A DNA stretch of 64,000 nucleotides from Campylobacteraceae bacterium (GTDB lineage: Bacteria; Campylobacterota; Campylobacteria; Campylobacterales; Campylobacteraceae). Of this stretch, positions 7,363 through 62,369 are shown one piece after another (the stretch's first letter is position 1; every line of letters begins with the position of its first letter). The stretch covers positions 62,001 to 126,000 of the forward strand of contig JAISAU010000010.1 in assembly GCA_031266555.1 (NCBI GenBank), read 5' to 3'. The translations under genes were made by a program, and so were the position numbers. A model generated the notes under the pieces. That model searched no databases. It worked only from the letters and a program-made list of their open reading frames with translations, and was not told where the DNA came from.

Positions 7363-7743
7363 ATCTTTTTCCTTGCTTATTTTTAAAGTATAGATAATTA
7401 ATATCAGTATCAAGTATTTAATTTGGAAAGATATCATAATAAAGCTTAAAAGTATTTCAATATGTGTTAAAAGTAAAGTTGTAATCTAAACGGTTTCGCG
7501 GAGTTTTATGTTGAAACCGTTTAAAATCTTGCTTTGTGTTAGTAAAAGTTGTAATATAAATTTTATGATGTGACTACAAAAGTATTCGCGATATAGTTTT
7601 CACATATTTAAACTCAAAAGTATGTGCAAAAATACTATTCCATACTTAAATGTCATATCGCAGCAACTTACACATGTACTGAGTTTAAGTTTATTTATAA
7701 CTCTTAAAAATAACAAAATACACTAGTTTTATTTGTAGTATAT
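7363..7743. other. Intergenic region with an 11-bp hairpin (7487-7523)
   Basis: No gene is visible. Perfect complementary arms at 7487-7497 (TAAACGGTTTC) and 7513-7523 enclose a 15-nt loop. There is no U-tract on either side, so it is not a classic terminator. It lies about 125 bp upstream of the ABC operon and could be a regulatory site or RNA leader structure. Confidence 0.5.
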
Positions 7744-9175: not shown

Positions 9176-9806
9176 GTAAAATTAAAAAAAAATAAAAATT
9201 TGCTATATAAACAATAGATTTTTAATAGTAAATTATCACATTGTTTTTGAGAGTTTGCAGAATAATATAATTTGTTTTTGTAATTTAAAAGTAGTAGTTG
9301 TTCAAGTTAGCTATGTTTTTATTAATATCAAGATTTTTGAAAATCAATGATATAAATAATTTGTTACATGTAGCATTAATTAAGTTCTTTACATGTAGGA
9401 CTATTATAAAAATATTCTTGGATATAAAAATATTTACGCAAAAATAGAAAAACAATCCAAATGATAAGAAATCACTACATGTAAGCTAAGTATAAAAATA
9501 TTTGTTTTGTAAAAAATGAGCGATGAGGTGTTTGAAAAGATATATTTTATTTTCCAAATTACCACGTTTTAGCAATCACCGAGCGTTGTCCTGTTTTTAT
9601 GTTTTTGCGTAAAATAAAAACATAAAACTCCTAAATATCATATTTTTTGCAAACCTATTTTTAGCGATTTTAATAAGAACGTCGTAGTATTTTGTTAATA
9701 AAGCAAGTTACGCTTAGTAAGTTTAAAATTTTTATATACAAAAGAAGTTTTAGAGATTAAAACCCTTACATATAAGTTATGCAAGGGTTTTAAAAGGGCA
9801 GGGCGA
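9176..9806. other. Intergenic region with three TACATGTA copies and two hairpins
   Basis: No gene or known RNA is recognised. TACATGTA occurs at 9365, 9390 and 9476. An A/T-rich hairpin spans 9593-9628 (TATGTTTTT / AAAAACATA). A hairpin at 9759-9791 follows groEL and is listed separately. Confidence 0.5.
9759..9791 (-). terminator. Probable groEL terminator
   Basis: The arms AAAACCCTT (9759-9767) and AAGGGTTTT (9783-9791) are perfect complements with a 15-nt loop, 16 bp beyond the groEL stop codon. Reading on the minus strand, the stem ends in a T-run. Confidence 0.6.
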
Positions 9807-11450
<1,644 letters not shown>

Positions 11451-11457
11451 TTAATCC

Positions 11458-11727
11458 TTATTTTAAAATTCCAAGAACATCTTCGACATTCATAACCAAA
11501 TATGTCTTTTTATCAAGCGTAATTTCTGAGCCTGAATACTTGGCAAATACGACAGTATCGCCTACGCCGACCAATTTCTTTTCTTTTACTTCGTCGCCTA
11601 TAGCCTTTACTGTTCCGTGCAAAGGTTTTTCTTTCGCATTATCGGGTATAATAATGCCTGACGCAGTAGTTGTCTGTTCTTCAACTCTTTCAACTAAAAT
11701 TCGTTGACCTAGTGGCTGAAAATTCAT
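11458..11727 (-). CDS. groES: Co-chaperonin GroES
   Basis: 89 residues starting [16 protein letters not shown]. It has the mobile-loop region ([17 protein letters not shown]), which docks on GroEL, and the conserved [11 protein letters not shown] strand. It is the heptameric lid for GroEL. GGAGGACGAAT precedes the ATG. First gene of the heat-shock operon. Confidence 0.98.
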
Positions 11728-11752
11728 GCTATTCGTCCTCCAAAATTAATTT

Positions 11753-11779
11753 TTAGCACTCAACTTAAATGAGTGACGA
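11753..11779 (-). promoter_or_regulatory. CIRCE-like HrcA operator of groES-groEL
   Basis: TTAGCACTC, a 9-nt spacer, then GAGTGACGA. One half matches the CIRCE consensus exactly, the other matches at GAGTG and diverges afterwards. The 9-nt spacing is exact and the site lies just downstream of a strong promoter. HrcA repression is inferred from the known role of CIRCE. Confidence 0.8.
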
Positions 11780-11780
11780 G

Positions 11781-11809
11781 ATTTTACAATATTTGGTGTA
11801 AAATGTCAA
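11781..11809 (-). promoter_or_regulatory. Sigma-70 promoter of groES-groEL
   Basis: On the minus strand TTGACA (11804-11809) and TAAAAT (11781-11786) are separated by exactly 17 bp. The -35 element is consensus and the -10 has one mismatch. The CIRCE-like element begins right after the -10. Confidence 0.85.
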
Positions 11810-11931
11810 TGCCTAATGATAACAAAATCATATTACTTTAGTGTATTTGACTAAAGTTTTATAATATACACCGCAATAACTTTAACATGTAAAGATTGTC
11901 TGCGGTGACTTAAAATAAGGAGATTTGGGAT

Positions 11932-14867: not shown

Positions 14868-14944
14868 GGCTGGGTAGCTCAGCTGGTTAGAGCGCTGGTC
14901 TCATAAGCCGGAGGTCGGGAGTTCAAGTCTCCCCCCAGCTACCA
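14868..14944 (+). tRNA. tRNA-Met (anticodon CAT)
   Basis: 77 nt with an encoded CCA end. The acceptor GGCTGGG pairs with CCCAGCT (first pair G-U), the D-arm contains AGCTCAGCTGGTTAGAGC, the anticodon loop is CTCATAA with CAT, and the T-arm loop is GTTCAAGTC. It looks like an elongator tRNA-Met; a lysidine-modified tRNA-Ile2 also has a CAT anticodon and cannot be excluded by eye. The 3' end is the attachment site of the element to the right. Confidence 0.95.
14928..14944 (+). repeat. attL: left 17-bp attachment repeat
   Basis: TCTCCCCCCAGCTACCA, the 3' end of tRNA-Met, is repeated exactly at 20139-20155. Flanking bases differ on both sides, so the identity is exactly 17 bp. An integrase gene starts 158 bp to the right. 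Confidence 0.92.
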
Positions 14945-15064
14945 TAACTTTTTCACATAAACTTAAACGACTTCAAAACTACTCAAAAAGCCCAGAAAAT
15001 CATACTTTGAGATTATATCATAAAAAGCCAAAAAGGACAACGTAAGATTACATAAGTTAAAATA

Positions 15065-15083
15065 TGGGTACCCATAGGGTACC
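15065..15083 (+). repeat. Left copy of 19-bp subterminal site
   Basis: TGGGTACCCATAGGGTACC is present here and again at 20029-20047, each about 110-120 bp inside an element end. Within it two GGTACC palindromes lie 11 bp apart, about one helical turn. This fits an arm-type integrase or excisionase site, or a repressor operator just upstream of int. Confidence 0.9.
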
Positions 15084-15101
15084 GAAAAACAAGGTGATTT
15101 T

Positions 15102-16178
15102 ATGAATGACCGTATCAAAAGCAGTACAAAATACGCAGGCATTTATCATAGAGTGCTGTCAAACGATGATTTAACCTATTACATTTCGTACAAAGATAGC
15201 AATAATAATAAGAAATGGGTGAAAGTAGGTAAGAAAAGCGAAGGAATAAACATTGCTTTTTGTCATCAGCAACGCAACGAAATAATCAATAAAGCCAAAT
15301 TTGGCGATACTGCTCCGCTCATCAAGCACAGACAAAAAAACGGCTTGACGTTTAATGATTTGATAGACCAATACCTTCAAAGCAAAGAATTATCACCAAA
15401 GGTAGCCCTATCTTATAAAACCATCAAAAACGTATTCACTGATATGTTTGTATCAGATATTACAATAGATGAGATAAATAAACTCAAGGCTACTTTAGCG
15501 GATGACGGCAAAGCACCAAAGACAATTAACTGCTATTTGCAACAAATAAACGCTTTGTTTAATTACGCCATTGATAGAGAGTTGTTTAAAGGCGCAAATC
15601 CGTGTAGAAAAATAGATAAACCAAAGGTGGATAATAACAGAGAGCGTTTTTTGTCAGCCGATGAGATTATCCGCCTTAAAGAAGCTATCAAGCATAAAGA
15701 GGATTTTATGTTATTTGTTGAATTGAGTTTAAGCACGGGCGGACGTTTAAACACTATAACCGCAATCAAGAAAAAAGACATCAATTTAGAGCGGCGTACG
15801 ATAAATTTATACAACATAAAGAGTAAAAATAACTACACGGGTTTTATTTCAAGTGCGCTTTTGCCGCTACTCACGCAACGATATAAGGCATTACACGCTC
15901 CAAACGACACAATATTGACCTCATCACACCGTACAATACAAAAGCAACTACAGCCACGCCTAAACAAGCTTTTTAATCAAGGTTTAGACAGTAAAGACAG
16001 AAAAAACAGAGTAGTTATTCATACATTACGCCATACATTTGCCAGCCATTTGGCAATAAAGGGCGTGCCAATATTTACGATTATGAAATTATTAGACCAC
16101 AAGAATATTAAAGATACGTTGAGGTATGCAAAATTAGCACCAGATAACGGATTAGAGGCGGTGAAAGAGTTATGGTAG
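15102..16178 (+). CDS. Tyrosine recombinase (integrase) of the tRNA-Met element
   Basis: 358 residues. The N-terminal 65 residues resemble an arm-binding domain (YYISYKDSNNNKKWVKVGKK). A SAM-like core-binding domain follows (about 85-175), then the catalytic domain with Arg in STGGRLNTI, HTLRHTFASHL (H-x-x-R), and LLDHKNIKDTLRYAKL with the nucleophile Tyr. All key residues are present, so it should be active. ATG follows AAGGTG. Its location next to the tRNA 3' end and the 17-bp repeats show that it catalysed insertion there. Its last 7 bp overlap the next gene. Confidence 0.95.
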   Translation: MNDRIKSSTKYAGIYHRVLSNDDLTYYISYKDSNNNKKWVKVGKKSEGINIAFCHQQRNEIINKAKFGDTAPLIKHRQKNGLTFNDLIDQYLQSKELSPKVALSYKTIKNVFTDMFVSDITIDEINKLKATLADDGKAPKTINCYLQQINALFNYAIDRELFKGANPCRKIDKPKVDNNRERFLSADEIIRLKEAIKHKEDFMLFVELSLSTGGRLNTITAIKKKDINLERRTINLYNIKSKNNYTGFISSALLPLLTQRYKALHAPNDTILTSSHRTIQKQLQPRLNKLFNQGLDSKDRKNRVVIHTLRHTFASHLAIKGVPIFTIMKLLDHKNIKDTLRYAKLAPDNGLEAVKELW

Positions 16179-17062
16179 ATATTGAAAACGAAAAAGAAGA
16201 ATTATCACGACAAATAGATGATAATAATAAACAAATAGACGAATTGGTTAAAAAAAATGGTGAATTAATTCAGAAGAAAATAAAAATAGTGAAAGACAAA
16301 GAATATGCCGAATTTTTACATAAAACACTTAATACTTTACCCGAATGTATAAATTATATTGGCTATTATCCACCTTCAAATTTTGACATAGATAACCAAC
16401 CGAAAAAAGCACAAAAAGCGAAAAACCCTTTTTTAGCAATGCAATCTTATAATGCTAATCTTATAGAGATAACACGTCAAGTTATCACAAAGCAATTTAT
16501 CAATACTGCAACCGATGAAATACATAAAAAAGCCTTTGAATTGTGCTTAAAAAGCCTCAATAATATGCGCAAAGGCAATTATCCCGAAGAAACTTATGCT
16601 ATTACACCACTTGAAAAACCGCAGTATGCTAAAATATGGATTATTACTACAGCAATACTCGTTGAAGGATACGATAATTTAGAGGCGTTATCTTATTTTA
16701 ATGATTGTATTGAGCCATTTTGTTTACATTTTACAACTTACGCCCATTATATAATATGGGCAATGAGGCTTGAACAATTTAAAGAACAAAAAATACCAGC
16801 AAATCACATCTCAAGAGCAAAAGAACCATATGTGCCATTGGCAAGTACTCTTAATAATTTGCGTAACTTAAGGGATATTAATAAGCTTATAGAAATACTA
16901 CAAATACCAAAAGAGCTAATTGGTAAAAAAGAGTATTTAAGAGTGCCAGCTTGCAATGGCAAAAAGCATAGAGGATTTTATAGTTTCGACCATTATCATA
17001 TTACAAAATCCATAGAGCTTTTATTAGATGAAGTACGCTACTTCAACTCTGTTTACAACTAA
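16172..17062 (+). CDS. Unknown element-encoded protein with N-terminal coiled coil
   Basis: 296 residues, not recognised. Residues 1-50 are charged and heptad-like (NEKEELSRQIDDNNKQIDEL), predicting a coiled coil. The rest is mixed helical with aromatic-rich patches (YAHYIIWAMRLEQF) and no signal peptide or membrane segment. It overlaps int by 7 bp, so it is translationally coupled to the integrase and may be cargo or an integrase partner. Cys and His occur but form no clear metal motif. Its low use of GCG and CGC differs from chromosomal genes. Confidence 0.75.
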   Translation: MVDIENEKEELSRQIDDNNKQIDELVKKNGELIQKKIKIVKDKEYAEFLHKTLNTLPECINYIGYYPPSNFDIDNQPKKAQKAKNPFLAMQSYNANLIEITRQVITKQFINTATDEIHKKAFELCLKSLNNMRKGNYPEETYAITPLEKPQYAKIWIITTAILVEGYDNLEALSYFNDCIEPFCLHFTTYAHYIIWAMRLEQFKEQKIPANHISRAKEPYVPLASTLNNLRNLRDINKLIEILQIPKELIGKKEYLRVPACNGKKHRGFYSFDHYHITKSIELLLDEVRYFNSVYN

Positions 17063-17066
17063 ACAT

Positions 17067-17107
17067 AAAATCCTAATAAGTTAATCAACAAACAGCATAT
17101 CAAGCTT
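17067..17107 (+). repeat. 41-bp direct repeat, copy 1
   Basis: A perfect 41-bp repeat (begins AAAATCCTAATAAG, ends ATATCAAGCTT) found again at 17342-17382. The two copies bracket an imperfect palindrome. Confidence 0.95.
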
Positions 17108-17303
17108 TGTATAGAATAAGCTAAAACACCTCATCAAGCATTTAATATTCAAGCTATGAAAACCATTACCAAGCTTGAGTTACTGCCTTTTAAATCGTTT
17201 ACTACTCAAAGCCTTGATGAGGTAATCCAAGATAGCTTTTAAACCTCTCATGTTTGAATTAAATCTCATCAGCCAATCAAACTAAAACAGCTTATTCTAT
17301 ACA
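17108..17303. repeat. Imperfect long palindrome between the 41-bp repeats
   Basis: The outer arms TGTATAGAATAAGCT (17108-17122) and AGCTTATTCTATACA (17289-17303) are perfect complements. Inner complementary pairs include ACCTCATCAAG (17128-17138) with CTTGATGAGGT (17213-17223), and TTGAGT with ACTCAA near the centre. There is no open frame of note. It may encode a structured RNA or form a replication or recombination site. Confidence 0.8.
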
Positions 17304-17341
17304 GCCACGCATACATATTTTGACATATTACGGACAATCGC

Positions 17342-17382
17342 AAAATCCTAATAAGTTAATCAACAAACAGCATATCAAGCTT
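17342..17382 (+). repeat. 41-bp direct repeat, copy 2
   Basis: Identical to 17067-17107 over 41 bp; the sequences diverge immediately on either side. It ends 64 bp before the Ogr-like gene. Confidence 0.95.
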
Positions 17383-17446
17383 AAAGTTTATTGCTCTTAC
17401 AAATACTTATAATACGTTATCAAAACAAAAAAATAAAGGCAATAAA

Positions 17447-17671
17447 ATGTTCTGTCCACGTTGTGCTGGTAAAACAATCACAGCAGGTGTAACACACACC
17501 ACTAATCGCTCAATTATAAATCGCTTACGTAAATGCGCAGAGTGTGAATACGTATTTTTAACCGTTGAGGTAGCAAAACATAGCGATTTTTGGAAAGGAT
17601 ATGTTAAAGCACTTTACGAAACGGAAGTAGAAAGAGGTTTTTCAAATGTTAGAAAACCTTTAAAACCATAA
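17447..17671 (+). CDS. Ogr/Delta-like zinc-finger protein
   Basis: 74 residues. MFCPRC at the start and RKCAECEYVFLTVE at residues 28-41 give a CxxC...CxxC zinc ribbon with the spacing of phage Ogr/Delta late-gene activators, which also carry an Arg before the second pair and a downstream T-x-E. Ogr/Delta proteins activate phage late promoters and are carried by P2-like phages and P4-like satellites. A satellite using a helper phage is therefore one reading. The similarity is by motif only; a generic zinc ribbon regulator is the alternative. Confidence 0.75.
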   Translation: MFCPRCAGKTITAGVTHTTNRSIINRLRKCAECEYVFLTVEVAKHSDFWKGYVKALYETEVERGFSNVRKPLKP

Positions 17672-17814
17672 AATCATAGCATAAAAACAAGAGCCTTTTC
17701 ACATACCATTGCCGTAAATTCTTAATAGCAAGCTCAATTATTACCATTTTACATACAAAATTTTAAATTATCAAGCATTTTTTTCATAACTTAAAATATG
17801 TTTTGACAATTATC

Positions 17815-17873
17815 ATTCAATAGCATAAAAAGATAATGATACTAATAATTATGATACTTTTTAGCTATTGAAT
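17815..17873. repeat. Long inverted repeat
   Basis: ATTCAATAGCATAAAAAG pairs with CTTTTTAGCTATTGAAT with a single bulge. The interior ATAATGATACTAATAATTAT is AT-only apart from two bases. It is suited to strand opening. Confidence 0.85.
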
Positions 17874-18012
17874 AAAATACGATGAGATACGATAAATTCA
17901 CTATTGAGAAGCATTCTTAACAATCTATCACGGTTTTAATTTATTGCTCTTTTTTAATACTCTGATACTTTTAAAAAATCATTAAAATCTTAAAACAATA
18001 TTAAAAACACTT

Positions 18013-18049
18013 TTACGTCGCCATCTCTAAAAATAAAGTGGCGACGTAA
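18013..18049. repeat. GC-rich 11-bp stem hairpin
   Basis: TTACGTCGCCA / TGGCGACGTAA with a 15-nt loop, in otherwise very AT-rich DNA, about 70 bp before the AlpA-like start. A Rep nick site or operator is possible. Confidence 0.85.
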
Positions 18050-18119
18050 GCTATTGAACCAAACACGACTTTGTTACATAATCCCACTCGAATTTAAAAA
18101 ATTCAAAAAAGGAGAAAAG

Positions 18120-18326
18120 ATGAAAGATGTTACAAACATCGAAAAAGCGGCTTTGTCGCCAAAAGAGGCGGCTCAATATTTAGGCTTGTCAGTACCGACA
18201 CTAAAAAGGATGAGGTCACAAGGCGTAGGCATTAACTATGTCAAAAACGGTAAGAAAAATAGCAGGATTTTATATCCCATCAAAGAGCTGGATAAGTTTT
18301 TATCCAATACGAAAAAGACTATTTAA
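18120..18326 (+). CDS. AlpA/excisionase-like helix-turn-helix regulator
   Basis: 68 residues from the ATG at 18120, which follows AAAGGAGAAAAG. The core KEAAQYLGLSVPTLKRMRSQ is the MerR/excisionase-type helix-turn-helix (HTH_17), followed by the wing with ILYPIKELDKFL. Proteins of this kind act as excisionases or as activators of integrase genes in prophages and satellites. Here it is first in a run of four same-strand genes. Confidence 0.85.
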   Translation: MKDVTNIEKAALSPKEAAQYLGLSVPTLKRMRSQGVGINYVKNGKKNSRILYPIKELDKFLSNTKKTI

Positions 18327-18341
18327 CATAAAGGACATACA

Positions 18342-18605
18342 ATGAGAATAAAGACAACGCATAAAATGTGTATTTTGAAAAGACTGTTAAAAGAGGCGAC
18401 GCTTATAAGTTTAGATTTGGGTAATGTAATGTCAAATCCAAATAAACACTTTAATCAGCTAAAGAAAGATGGTTTTATCGGTGAACGCACACAAGCGACA
18501 TCACAATTTAAAATCCGTTACCTACTGCCAAATAAACGTAAAAAAGTAGCCGCTTTATTGAAAAATAAAATAAGCTACAAAAAGCTAAAAAAGGCTTGCA
18601 AATGA
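18342..18605 (+). CDS. Small element protein, tandem paralogue A
   Basis: 87 residues, basic. It shares SLDLGN(V/I)MSNPN, the spacing to a KKDGFIGE turn, and a (I/Y)LLPNKRKK tail with the next gene, so the pair arose by tandem duplication. The pattern (helix, NPN, L-K-x-x-G-x-I-G) suggests a winged-helix DNA-binding fold. It starts 15 bp after the AlpA-like gene. No named family recognised. Confidence 0.7.
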   Translation: MRIKTTHKMCILKRLLKEATLISLDLGNVMSNPNKHFNQLKKDGFIGERTQATSQFKIRYLLPNKRKKVAALLKNKISYKKLKKACK

Positions 18606-18904
18606 ATAAACCAACCTCACACCTAATATACATCTTATGCCGTCTTTATAACGGCGAACAATTAACATCATTGGATTTAGGCAATATAATGTCAAATCCA
18701 AATCAATACTTTTGCAAGTTAAAAGCAATGGGATTGATTGGTGAGTGGATAACTACTCACGGCGTTAAAGTTCATTTCATATTGCCAAAAGCAAGGAAAA
18801 GAGCTAAAGCATTGTTAGAAGCATACGGCAAAAAGCAAGTAAACCTTTTTAACTATAAAACAGATGGTCTAAATGCCATCAAAAAAGCTAAAAGGTCATA
18901 TTGA
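18602..18904 (+). CDS. Small element protein, tandem paralogue B
   Basis: About 100 residues from the ATG at 18602, which overlaps the previous stop as ATGA. It shares SLDLGNIMSNPN, LKAMGLIGEW and FILPKARKRAKAL with paralogue A and has a C-terminal extension ending in basic residues. Probably a winged-helix DNA-binding protein. Translational coupling to paralogue A suggests that the two act together, perhaps as a heterodimer. Confidence 0.7.
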   Translation: MNKPTSHLIYILCRLYNGEQLTSLDLGNIMSNPNQYFCKLKAMGLIGEWITTHGVKVHFILPKARKRAKALLEAYGKKQVNLFNYKTDGLNAIKKAKRSY

Positions 18905-18919
18905 TAGCTAGTCTTTGCC

Positions 18920-19645
18920 TTGCACTTTGAGCTTGAACAATTAAGTAAATTCGGGACAATTGAAACGGTAAAAAACCGTATTATCCTAAACAATGAACTA
19001 TTGCCCGAATTTAAGCTCCATAACGGCAAATACTACAGCTATTTAGCCATTTTCACAAGCAAGGCAGGATTAAAATATCAAGTAGTGCAACACAGCCGTG
19101 CTAAATATCCTACTATCAAGTTCATAGGGCTCTATCAATATACTAAAACATCAGACTTTTTAAGAGATGACTTAAAACTCTTTATGAAACTATTCAAGGA
19201 TAAGATAACACTTTACAGAATAGACATAGCATTTGACCAAGCTAACCGTTTTAATATCAAACAGATAGCCAAAAACACCAAGAGACACATTTATAAGAAA
19301 AAGCATTACAGAACATCTTATCTTAAAACTCCAAAAGAGAAAAAGACCAATCAGTATTTAGATATCAAACATTATAAGAAAACACAAGATATTCACAGAT
19401 TGGAGTTTGCATTCAAAGGCAAACGTTATCTTGTCAATACAGACATAATACACAAGCAAATCGAAAAAGCTATCGATGTGGGTTTTGAGGTTGAAGAGTT
19501 ATTAGACGCATTATTTAAAGAACCGATAACAGTGAAGCAATCAACTAAACAAATGTTTAGAAGTGCATTTGCATATTTCATACTGTTTTTGAGAAAATGT
19601 TGTAAGAGGATATTTGAGAAAATGGTAGTTTGTTTGTTGATATGA
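18920..19645 (+). CDS. Putative replication initiation protein (phage/plasmid Rep-like)
   Basis: 241 residues from a TTG at 18920. Stops TGA and TAG lie 18 and 15 nt upstream in frame, and no good Shine-Dalgarno sequence is seen. LYRIDIAFDQA and IHRLEFAFKGKRY resemble the strand motifs of RstA/gpII-type and Rep_trans replication initiators used by filamentous phages and rolling-circle plasmids. The protein is shorter than most such Reps, and its C-terminus (FLRKCCKRIFEKMVV) is atypical, so truncation or frame loss is possible. It is the last of the regulator-Rep gene run, before a terminator. Confidence 0.55.
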   Translation: MHFELEQLSKFGTIETVKNRIILNNELLPEFKLHNGKYYSYLAIFTSKAGLKYQVVQHSRAKYPTIKFIGLYQYTKTSDFLRDDLKLFMKLFKDKITLYRIDIAFDQANRFNIKQIAKNTKRHIYKKKHYRTSYLKTPKEKKTNQYLDIKHYKKTQDIHRLEFAFKGKRYLVNTDIIHKQIEKAIDVGFEVEELLDALFKEPITVKQSTKQMFRSAFAYFILFLRKCCKRIFEKMVVCLLI

Positions 19646-19694
19646 TATAATCGTTTTTGTTGTCTTTGCTCATTGTATGCTTAAATGCTTTTTG

Positions 19695-19734
19695 CGGGCT
19701 TTTTATTGTATGGCGCGTTTGTGTAAAAAGCCCG
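19695..19734. terminator. Bidirectional terminator between the Rep-like gene and the reverse small gene
   Basis: CGGGCTTTTT (19695-19704) and AAAAAGCCCG (19725-19734) are perfect complements. The hairpin serves convergent genes ending at 19645 (+) and 19745 (-). Confidence 0.85.
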
Positions 19735-19744
19735 TAATAGAAAA

Positions 19745-19942
19745 CTAATCAGATTTTTCGGATAGCAACTCAATAATTTGACCTGCTTTTTGCTCAATCA
19801 TCAAGCAAAGTAAACCAAGTCCATCCTTTTCACGCTTATCTATTTCATTGTTATCACAAACAAAACCAAGACTAACTACAGCTACCAAGTCTCTAATTTC
19901 GCCAGCAATATCGCAAGCGTTCAGTTTTTCGCCCATACTCAT
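19745..19942 (-). CDS. Small element protein of unknown function
   Basis: 65 residues from an ATG at 19942 (MGEKLNACDIAGEIRDLVA is preceded by one codon pair). An upstream ATG is too close to the AGGAG ribosome site, which sits 9 nt before this start. It is helical and acidic with four Cys, and has no membrane segment. It is the only reverse-strand gene of the element and lies 87 bp from the right 19-bp site, so it may act in maintenance or control. Not recognised. Confidence 0.65.
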   Translation of the reverse strand: MSMGEKLNACDIAGEIRDLVAVVSLGFVCDNNEIDKREKDGLGLLCLMIEQKAGQIIELLSEKSD

Positions 19943-20028
19943 AATTAACATCTCCTAACGTTTTTTATTGTATGATTTGAGAGGTTTTTTAATATCGCTT
20001 GATGGTCAAAACTATTTTTTTAAAGATT

Positions 20029-20047
20029 TGGGTACCCATAGGGTACC
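20029..20047 (+). repeat. Right copy of 19-bp subterminal site
   Basis: Identical to 15065-15083 (TGGGTACCCATAGGGTACC), 91 bp inside attR. Confidence 0.9.
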
Positions 20048-20138
20048 TTTTACCAATAATCTCAAACCTTAAATCAATAGCAAAATAGCGTTTTTATCGT
20101 GGTTTATGTTGTTTTATGGCTACTGTTTGAGTATCTTA

Positions 20139-20155
20139 TCTCCCCCCAGCTACCA
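20139..20155 (+). repeat. attR: right 17-bp attachment repeat
   Basis: An exact copy of the tRNA-Met 3' end (14928-14944). No tRNA body precedes it, as expected of a target remnant displaced by integration. Confidence 0.92.
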
Positions 20156-60610: not shown

Positions 60611-62369
60611 AATAAACTTTCAAAAACTAAACGTCAGCTCTTATATAGAGTTGGCGCTTATAGCTCCGACGCGATATGAAGATCTGAACATTTGCAAGTT
60701 TCCAAAAGTAAATGAATTAAATGTTGTTGAGATTAGTATAGATAAAGTTCAAAGACATCCTAAGTTTTTGAAAATTTATGCCAAAGCTTGGGATAAAAAT
60801 GTGGAGATAATCATATTTAATCCTACAAATTTTCATTTCTCAAACTTTAAACCGACAAATAAACTTTTTGTGCAAGCAAGAGCAGAATACGCGTTTGGTA
60901 AATTTCAGCTCTTGCAACCAAAAATCACGTATGAAATTAATAGAATATTGCCTGTCTACAAAACGACTATCGCTCAAAAAAGTATGGCAGCGTTGATAAA
61001 CGAGTACTTACATGTAAAGAATTTAGAAGATGAAGGATTGCCAAAAGTATATGCTAAAGCTTTGTATGATTTACATAATCCTTTACATGTAGATTATGAT
61101 ATCGCTCTGAAAAATGCCCTAAAAGCTTTGAAATTTGGAGAAATTTATCTGTTTTTAAAACGTCTTAGCCATAAAAAACAGCATTTCACGGCTTCTGTCA
61201 TTTTATCTGGAGACGAGCGAGATTTTGTGAAAAATCTGCCGTTTTCTTTGACAAACGAACAGAAAAAAGCGATAGAAGATATAAAAAGCGATTTGTCAAA
61301 ACATATCGCCGCCAGACGCGTGATAATGGGAGACGTGGGAAGCGGTAAAACGGTGGTTATATTTGCCGCCGTTATGATGGCAATGCCCAAACGCTCCGTG
61401 CTTATGGCGCCTACTACTATTTTGGCAAAGCAGATTTTTAATGAGGCTAAAAGGTTATTGCCTTCACATGTAAGGAGCGTTTTAGTTACAAGCGGCGACA
61501 AAGACATATGTTTTAAAGAGGCTGATTTTATTATAGGAACGCACGTATTGCTTTATAGGGAGCTACCCAAATGCGATTTAGTGATGATTGACGAACAACA
61601 CAGATTTGGCACCGCGCAGCGCGATGTCGTGCATAAAATGGTGAGCGAAGGCAAAGAACATCCGCATTTTTTACAATTTAGCGCGACGCCAATACCTCGT
61701 ACTATGAGCTTAATACACTCTTCGATTGTAAACTACTCTTTTATAAAACAAACGCCGTACAAAAGAGATATTGACACATATATCATCGGCAAAAAAGACT
61801 TTGGCAAAATGTTATGGCATATTGAGAACGAGATAAAAGAGGGCAGACAAACTATAATTATCTATCCTTTGGTCGAAGAGAGCGAAGCGTATAAATATCA
61901 ATCTATAGACGAGGGCAGAGAGTTTTGGGAGAAACGGTATGAAAATGTCTACATAACGCATGGAAAAGATAAAAATAAAGAGTTGGTTTTGGAAGAGTTC
62001 AATGAAAAAGGTTCTATTTTATTGGCTACCACAGTTGTTGAAGTAGGAATATCTTTGCCTAAACTTTCCACCATTGTCATTGTAGGAGCGGAACATTTGG
62101 GGCTTTCTACGCTTCATCAATTGCGTGGAAGGGTTAGCAGAAACGGTTTAAAAGGCTATTGCTATCTTTATACTAATATATTAAAAAACGAGAGACTTTT
62201 GGAGTTCGCGAATACAAAAAATGGGTTTGATATAGCTGAACTTGATTTAAAATATAGACAAAGCGGAGATTTGCTTGGCGGTATTTTACAACACGGTGTT
62301 CAATTTAGATGGTTTAGTTTGAAAGATGATAAAGATATTTTATTGGAAGCGCAAAAGTTGATAAAGTAA
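60582..62369 (+). CDS. recG: ATP-dependent DNA helicase RecG
   Basis: 595 residues, short as usual in Campylobacterota. Walker A VIMGDVGSGKTVV, DEQH box VMIDEQHRFG, motif III FSATPIPRTMSLI and motif VI HLGLSTLHQLRGRVSRNG. It reverses stalled forks and branch-migrates junctions. A decayed copy of part of motif VI lies 30 bp past the stop. Confidence 0.96.
   Translation: MITPKTPKDKINFQKLNVSSYIELALIAPTRYEDLNICKFPKVNELNVVEISIDKVQRHPKFLKIYAKAWDKNVEIIIFNPTNFHFSNFKPTNKLFVQARAEYAFGKFQLLQPKITYEINRILPVYKTTIAQKSMAALINEYLHVKNLEDEGLPKVYAKALYDLHNPLHVDYDIALKNALKALKFGEIYLFLKRLSHKKQHFTASVILSGDERDFVKNLPFSLTNEQKKAIEDIKSDLSKHIAARRVIMGDVGSGKTVVIFAAVMMAMPKRSVLMAPTTILAKQIFNEAKRLLPSHVRSVLVTSGDKDICFKEADFIIGTHVLLYRELPKCDLVMIDEQHRFGTAQRDVVHKMVSEGKEHPHFLQFSATPIPRTMSLIHSSIVNYSFIKQTPYKRDIDTYIIGKKDFGKMLWHIENEIKEGRQTIIIYPLVEESEAYKYQSIDEGREFWEKRYENVYITHGKDKNKELVLEEFNEKGSILLATTVVEVGISLPKLSTIVIVGAEHLGLSTLHQLRGRVSRNGLKGYCYLYTNILKNERLLEFANTKNGFDIAELDLKYRQSGDLLGGILQHGVQFRWFSLKDDKDILLEAQKLIK

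Follow-up and report, generated by a model that had tools for sequence, protein, structure and literature searches.

A probable minimal phage-satellite-like element in a tRNA-Met gene of a Campylobacter relative, and similar elements across Campylobacterales

What kind of mobile element occupies a 5.2-kb block inside a tRNA-Met gene of a Campylobacter relative, and by what means might it replicate and spread? We address this question for a window of 64,000 nucleotides (contig JAISAU010000010.1 of assembly GCA_031266555.1, Campylobacteraceae bacterium, positions 62,001 to 126,000; coordinates below are those of the window unless another locus is named). A first-pass annotation had described here a sharply bounded element at 14928-20155, flanked by 17-bp repeats, and our analysis recovers exactly these boundaries. 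The target is a tRNA-Met (CAU) gene on the plus strand (14868-14944; detected by ARAGORN, scored at 67.6 bits by Rfam and the sole match in the Rfam scan), which the insertion leaves intact. Its 3' end is the 17-bp sequence TCTCCCCCCAGCTACCA (attL core, 14928-14944, plus strand), and a second exact copy lies in direct orientation at 20139-20155 (attR core, plus strand). Computed from base composition, the chance occurrence of this 17-mer in the whole window is about 6e-7. One copy of the element was found in G000.

The first-pass annotation had left room for the repeats being coincidental and had pointed to related genomes as the place to look for siblings and empty sites. The integrase and the Rep-like protein served as queries against 153 genomes of the family. 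The siblings named here come from metagenome-assembled genomes labeled 'Campylobacteraceae bacterium', which, going by sample codes, we take to be termite-gut bins, an origin absent from the records. Four siblings from the same genus (L013, L027, L028 and L029) reside in the same tRNA-Met, whose 3' end they duplicate over 21, 20, 22 and 22 bp, respectively; since independent siblings duplicate 20-22 bp of the same gene, the 17-bp repeat is not a coincidence. Other siblings of the genus occupy tRNA-Ala (L014, L019) or tmRNA (L016). Conversely, three genomes (G141, G140 and G137) have the same tRNA-Met with no integrase behind it, and in G141 synteny extends to both sides, with an AsmA-like gene upstream and homologues of the window genes from 22642 onward beginning 670 bp downstream of the tRNA. 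The siblings and the integrase-free sites together therefore establish the tRNA-Met site as a real, repeatedly used attB; the 17-bp repeats are its att sites, and the 5.2-kb unit is confirmed as a mobile element. In L013 the AsmA gene lies on the opposite side of the tRNA relative to the other genomes. The same locus repeats its own left-end sequence outside attR (about 7400-7613, with a 44-bp identity block), which is probably what a previous insertion left behind.

Both ends of the element carry a further shared signature. The doubled motif TGGGTACCCATAGGGTACC (15065-15083, plus strand), made of two GGGTACC half-sites 11 bp apart, recurs identically at the right end (20029-20047, plus strand). 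An equivalent doubled motif, co-oriented at the two ends, is present in all eight same-genus elements examined, that of the window included, at fixed distances, the left copy 129-140 bp away from the start of attL, the right one 105-110 bp ahead of attR. The half-site itself varies between elements (GGGTACC, GGGTCACC, GGGTAGCC, GGTAGTT, GGTTAC), and the two ends of one element differ by 0-3 mismatches in 18, as against 3-6 for shuffled ends. This is how arm-type sites for the integrase or its Xis factor should look. A comparable doubled motif has been described at both attP arms of helper-embedded PICIs (PMC10111431), although its sequence and spacing differ from those seen here.

The genes between the repeats run in the order integrase, overlapping gene, zinc ribbon, AlpA/Xis-like helix-turn-helix (HTH) gene, WH1, WH2, rep and a small convergent gene. 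The tyrosine integrase (15102-16178, plus strand, 358 aa) matches Pfam Phage_integrase (1.6e-22) and PHROG_1 (4e-58), and the next gene (16172-17062, plus strand), at a hypervariable position, overlaps it by 7 nt and encodes a 296-aa protein of no family. Behind this second gene is a non-coding region (17067-17382) with 41-bp perfect direct repeats at 17067-17107 and 17342-17382, between which lies a 15-bp inverted pair; it is a candidate control or replication region. The 74-aa protein encoded at 17447-17671 (plus strand), with homologues in L013, L014 and L031, is a zinc ribbon whose best match is Zn_ribbon_NrdR (4.6e-5, under the curated cut-off). The earlier identification of this protein as an Ogr-like activator is not upheld, as Ogr_Delta emerged only at E 0.19 in a homologue and NrdR fits better. 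The 68-aa HTH protein (18120-18326, plus strand) has no match to Pfam Phage_AlpA and is instead recovered by HTH_17 (8e-11) and by PHROG_66 (3e-6), a family annotated as excisionase and transcriptional regulator.

Two small genes precede rep, namely WH1 (18342-18605, plus strand, a basic protein of 87 aa) and WH2 (18602-18904, plus strand, 100 aa, overlapping the rep start). They form a tandem pair linked by a DNA repeat, and siblings have one or two copies. Both proteins are basic and predicted to be of the winged-helix type, and WH1 probably binds DNA. Beyond rep lies a hairpin with an 11-bp stem (19695-19734), a candidate terminator or origin; we do not claim it as an origin because it is strong in three elements rather than a general feature. 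The small convergent gene (19745-19951, minus strand, 68 aa) has a homologue at the same end of L013. Pfam and PHROG searches of the element's ORFs returned no primase, no Zot/pI or coat gene was recognized among them, and none matched a relaxase or coupling-protein profile. Likewise, no terminase, capsid-remodelling or packaging gene was recognized in this element or its tRNA-Met siblings, whose recognizable functions are integration and replication only.

The first-pass annotation had likened the product of the replication gene to RstA and Rep_trans proteins. Rep matches no Pfam or PHROG family, and the Rep_trans profile PF02486 detects neither it nor any protein in the 153 genomes. Nothing was returned by sequence searches of the PDB with Rep profiles or by searches of phage and plasmid collections with Rep, and IMG/VR scans with both Rep types described below gave no relatives. 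As the Pfam search is empty, the kinship to Rep_trans rests on fold and motifs. An AlphaFold (AF2) model of the L013 homologue of Rep (pLDDT 78; a second AF2 model reached 82) has the TATA-binding protein (TBP) as its best match among PDB structures and, as the best viral match, A0A345MNV4 (E 8e-7). The latter is described as the replication initiator of an inovirus, containing a Rep_trans domain, and that domain as having a TBP-like fold (PMC13107129). Other elements have in this position a second Rep type, which hhalign relates to the first with 96% probability (E 2.7e-9) and whose best viral match is again A0A345MNV4. The TM-scores are low (0.3-0.44), so the assignment stays at the level of the fold. 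An alignment shows that both types conserve the Asp of an N-terminal IDS/IDT, an Asp within DIAxD/DICxD, and the motifs Tyr-x-Lys and Arg-x-Glu, which by sequence, without superposition, appear to correspond to D46, D142, Y191 and E214 of RepDE. The Rep family is thereby predicted to combine a TBP-like fold with the D/D/Y/E signature of three metal-binding acids and a nicking tyrosine. Fold and catalytic residues thus bear out the initial suggestion, whereas Pfam does not.

These features place Rep beside the Rep_trans initiators of pT181-type plasmids, inoviruses and MOBT relaxases (PMC4797284), with which it appears to share the TBP-like fold and the D/D/Y/E positions. Unlike them it escapes PF02486, and at 220-260 aa the Reps are without a fused HTH domain, the separate small gene before rep presumably taking the place of a fused DNA-binding domain. 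The archaeal Rep-Arvir initiators (PMC13107129) are similarly TBP-fold proteins related to Rep_trans by structure only, with the same inoviral protein among their Foldseek matches, but they are larger and have fused winged-helix domains. In the window, rep (18873-19645, plus strand) is frameshifted. The frame from the conserved start ATG 18873 (MPSKKLKGHIDS) ends at a TAG at 18909-18911 and the remainder is in another frame, open from 18920 to 19645. The first-pass annotation was hence right that a Rep-like gene is present, but the frame it listed, from TTG 18920, is only the 3' part. The frameshift cuts off the first metal-binding acid, and either the gene has lost its function or the assembly is in error; with rep in this state, the element may be inactive and unable to replicate.

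Relatives of the element, inserted in tRNA or tmRNA genes, are widespread in Campylobacterales; about 20 of them could be delimited by att repeats, the smallest measuring 4.06 kb and the largest about 11 kb. Their order is constant, namely integrase, overlapping hypervariable gene, AlpA-like HTH, small probable DNA-binding gene and Rep, both in the genus, where the zinc ribbon lies elsewhere or is absent, and in other Campylobacterales families. Several of them also contain phage-type genes. A TerS-family protein lies between the att repeats of L076 (PHROG_309, 9e-13), with homologues after rep in L075, L077 and L078, and a full-length TerL lies between those of L088 (PHROG_38, 1e-116). L075, L084 and L087 encode KilA-N (5e-15), ANT (1e-22) and Rha (2e-27) proteins in the interval that separates the integrase gene from rep, a position comparable to that of the Bro-network proteins of Gram-negative PICIs (PMC10111431). 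Among the relatives' proteins examined, which cover part of their ORFs, no capsid or tail gene was recognized. The element's own incomplete genome gave no match to Terminase_6N. The seven best contigs from an IMG/VR scan with the integrase were mostly tailed prophages; as none of them carries this Rep, they offer no virome evidence of packaging. L088 itself would be an unusual satellite in encoding a TerL, which is complete at L088:11802-13256 within a 10.4-kb Campylobacteraceae element that has 14-bp att repeats and no visible capsid gene. In L082 a 1048-aa polyvalent protein with ART-PolyVal, PBECR1 and acetyltransferase domains (L082:10135-13281) follows a type-A rep.

The gene behind the integrase overlaps it by 4-10 nt in most relatives. 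The 26 integrase-adjacent proteins compared are almost all mutually unrelated, with three related pairs, and PADLOC and Pfam assigned none of the overlapping genes to a defence family. In PICMIs, phage-inducible chromosomal minimalist islands that are the smallest phage satellites known, the iolg gene overlaps int and is essential for excision, and iolg and contiguous genes comprise 13 families of unknown function (PMC10803314), a diversity that the hypervariability of the overlapping gene seems to resemble. Alternatively, these genes could be cargo. In L014 the products of the overlapping gene (11055-11909) and of rep (9299-10174) share a C-terminal tail, YFKNxFGFK...YKxxPK, encoded by DNA identical in 26 of 27 bp, which suggests that the two proteins share a partner or that recombination took place; the overlapping gene of L019 encodes a similar tail.

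The closest published layout is that of the Vibrio element PICMI115, with 6.1 kb, 17-bp repeats and the genes int, iolg, alpA, up1, prim and up2 (PMC10803314), which the window element matches gene for gene except that Rep replaces the primase. The combination that had at first seemed unfamiliar is so only in part, since it resembles published PICMIs in which the primase has been exchanged. PICMIs and the window element alike are of about 5-6 kb, have 17-bp repeats, lack capsid and terS genes, and line up int, a hypervariable int-overlapping gene, alpA or an alpA-like gene, a small gene and a replication gene. They differ in that PICMIs integrate at fis, as opposed to tRNA-Met here and tRNA or tmRNA in the relatives, and in that they are Vibrionaceae elements induced by a helper phage and packaged as concatemers, whereas the present element comes from Campylobacterales and its helper is postulated. 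With Gram-negative and helper-embedded PICIs (PMC10111431) it shares an integration zone of int and an AlpA-like gene, unidirectional genes, doubled arm motifs and, in its larger relatives, Bro/KilA-type regulators, but it has no primase, late zone or terS. Given the differences in primase, fis site and terS, it is neither a PICMI nor a PICI as defined.

We consider it probable that this is a minimal phage-satellite-like element, working in a PICMI-like manner and replicated as a rolling circle, with a helper postulated by analogy. The satellite character proposed in the first-pass annotation draws support from the TerS, TerL and antirepressor genes in relatives without recognized capsid genes, and from the PICMI/PICI-like order. 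In the scheme we envisage, excision from tRNA-Met would depend on the integrase, the overlapping protein translated along with it and an AlpA-like factor acting as Xis, by way of the att cores and the doubled arm motifs. Rep, with its Rep_trans fold, would then nick the circle and, together with the WH proteins, copy it by rolling-circle replication, the product of which would probably be concatemers. A helper phage would trigger the element, and the terminase of that phage would package the concatemers. There is an even chance, in our estimate, that the elements form a separate Campylobacterales satellite lineage, defined by a Rep_trans-fold initiator in place of a primase, a PICMI-like integrase-overlapping protein and forms ranging from 4 kb and minimal to 10 kb with TerS or TerL.

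Other origins can be proposed. That the element is a helper-free integrative rolling-circle plasmid, spread by transformation or vertical descent, with TerS and TerL acquired later in some relatives, would account for the purely integrative and replicative functions of the tRNA-Met elements and for the many siblings in distinct tRNA genes. We regard it as unlikely in view of the PICMI/PICI-like gene order, the arm motifs and the packaging or antirepressor genes of several distant relatives with both Rep types. An integrative and mobilizable element, in which Rep would be a MOBT-like relaxase and the circle would be moved by a conjugative helper, is conceivable but about as unlikely. Rep_trans does include conjugative relaxases (PMC4797284), and integrases of about 40% identity stand, by eye, beside AlpA-like and relaxase-like genes in L036 and L042, from other Campylobacteraceae genera, loci that look like mobilizable elements of the same integrase lineage. 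Such integrases in Campylobacter-family genomes (L036-L044) were set aside, since most of the loci that contain them are of a different type. Against mobilization stand the missing relaxase and coupling-protein matches in the window element, although a protein of Rep_trans fold could itself serve as a relaxase, the terminase and phage antirepressor genes of relatives, the absence of PF02486 from the family's 153 genomes and the small Reps free of an HTH fusion. Decay of a filamentous (inovirus-like) or tailed prophage to this remnant, for which the inoviral fold match and the frameshifted rep might speak, is very improbable, as about 20 independent elements retain the same compact arrangement of genes together with intact att repeats, the small size of 4-6 kb recurs and no coat, Zot or structural gene was recognized; a filamentous-phage origin, as first suggested, is accordingly not supported.

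The satellite reading, which we prefer, places the element in what is apparently an undescribed family of minimal satellite-like elements, as judged from the open-access literature. In that literature, as searched, no satellite from Campylobacter or its relatives is described; most satellites reported so far belong to Enterobacterales, Vibrio or Firmicutes, to which the family, if confirmed, would add a phylum. It would also bring a mode of replication that PICMIs are not reported to use, along with a further, independent instance of the unexplained integrase-overlapping gene, whose role in excision would thereby become testable. Finally, Campylobacter genomes would, if the reading is confirmed, hold phage-dependent mobile DNA of a kind that would escape satellite finders keyed on a primase and Phage_AlpA.
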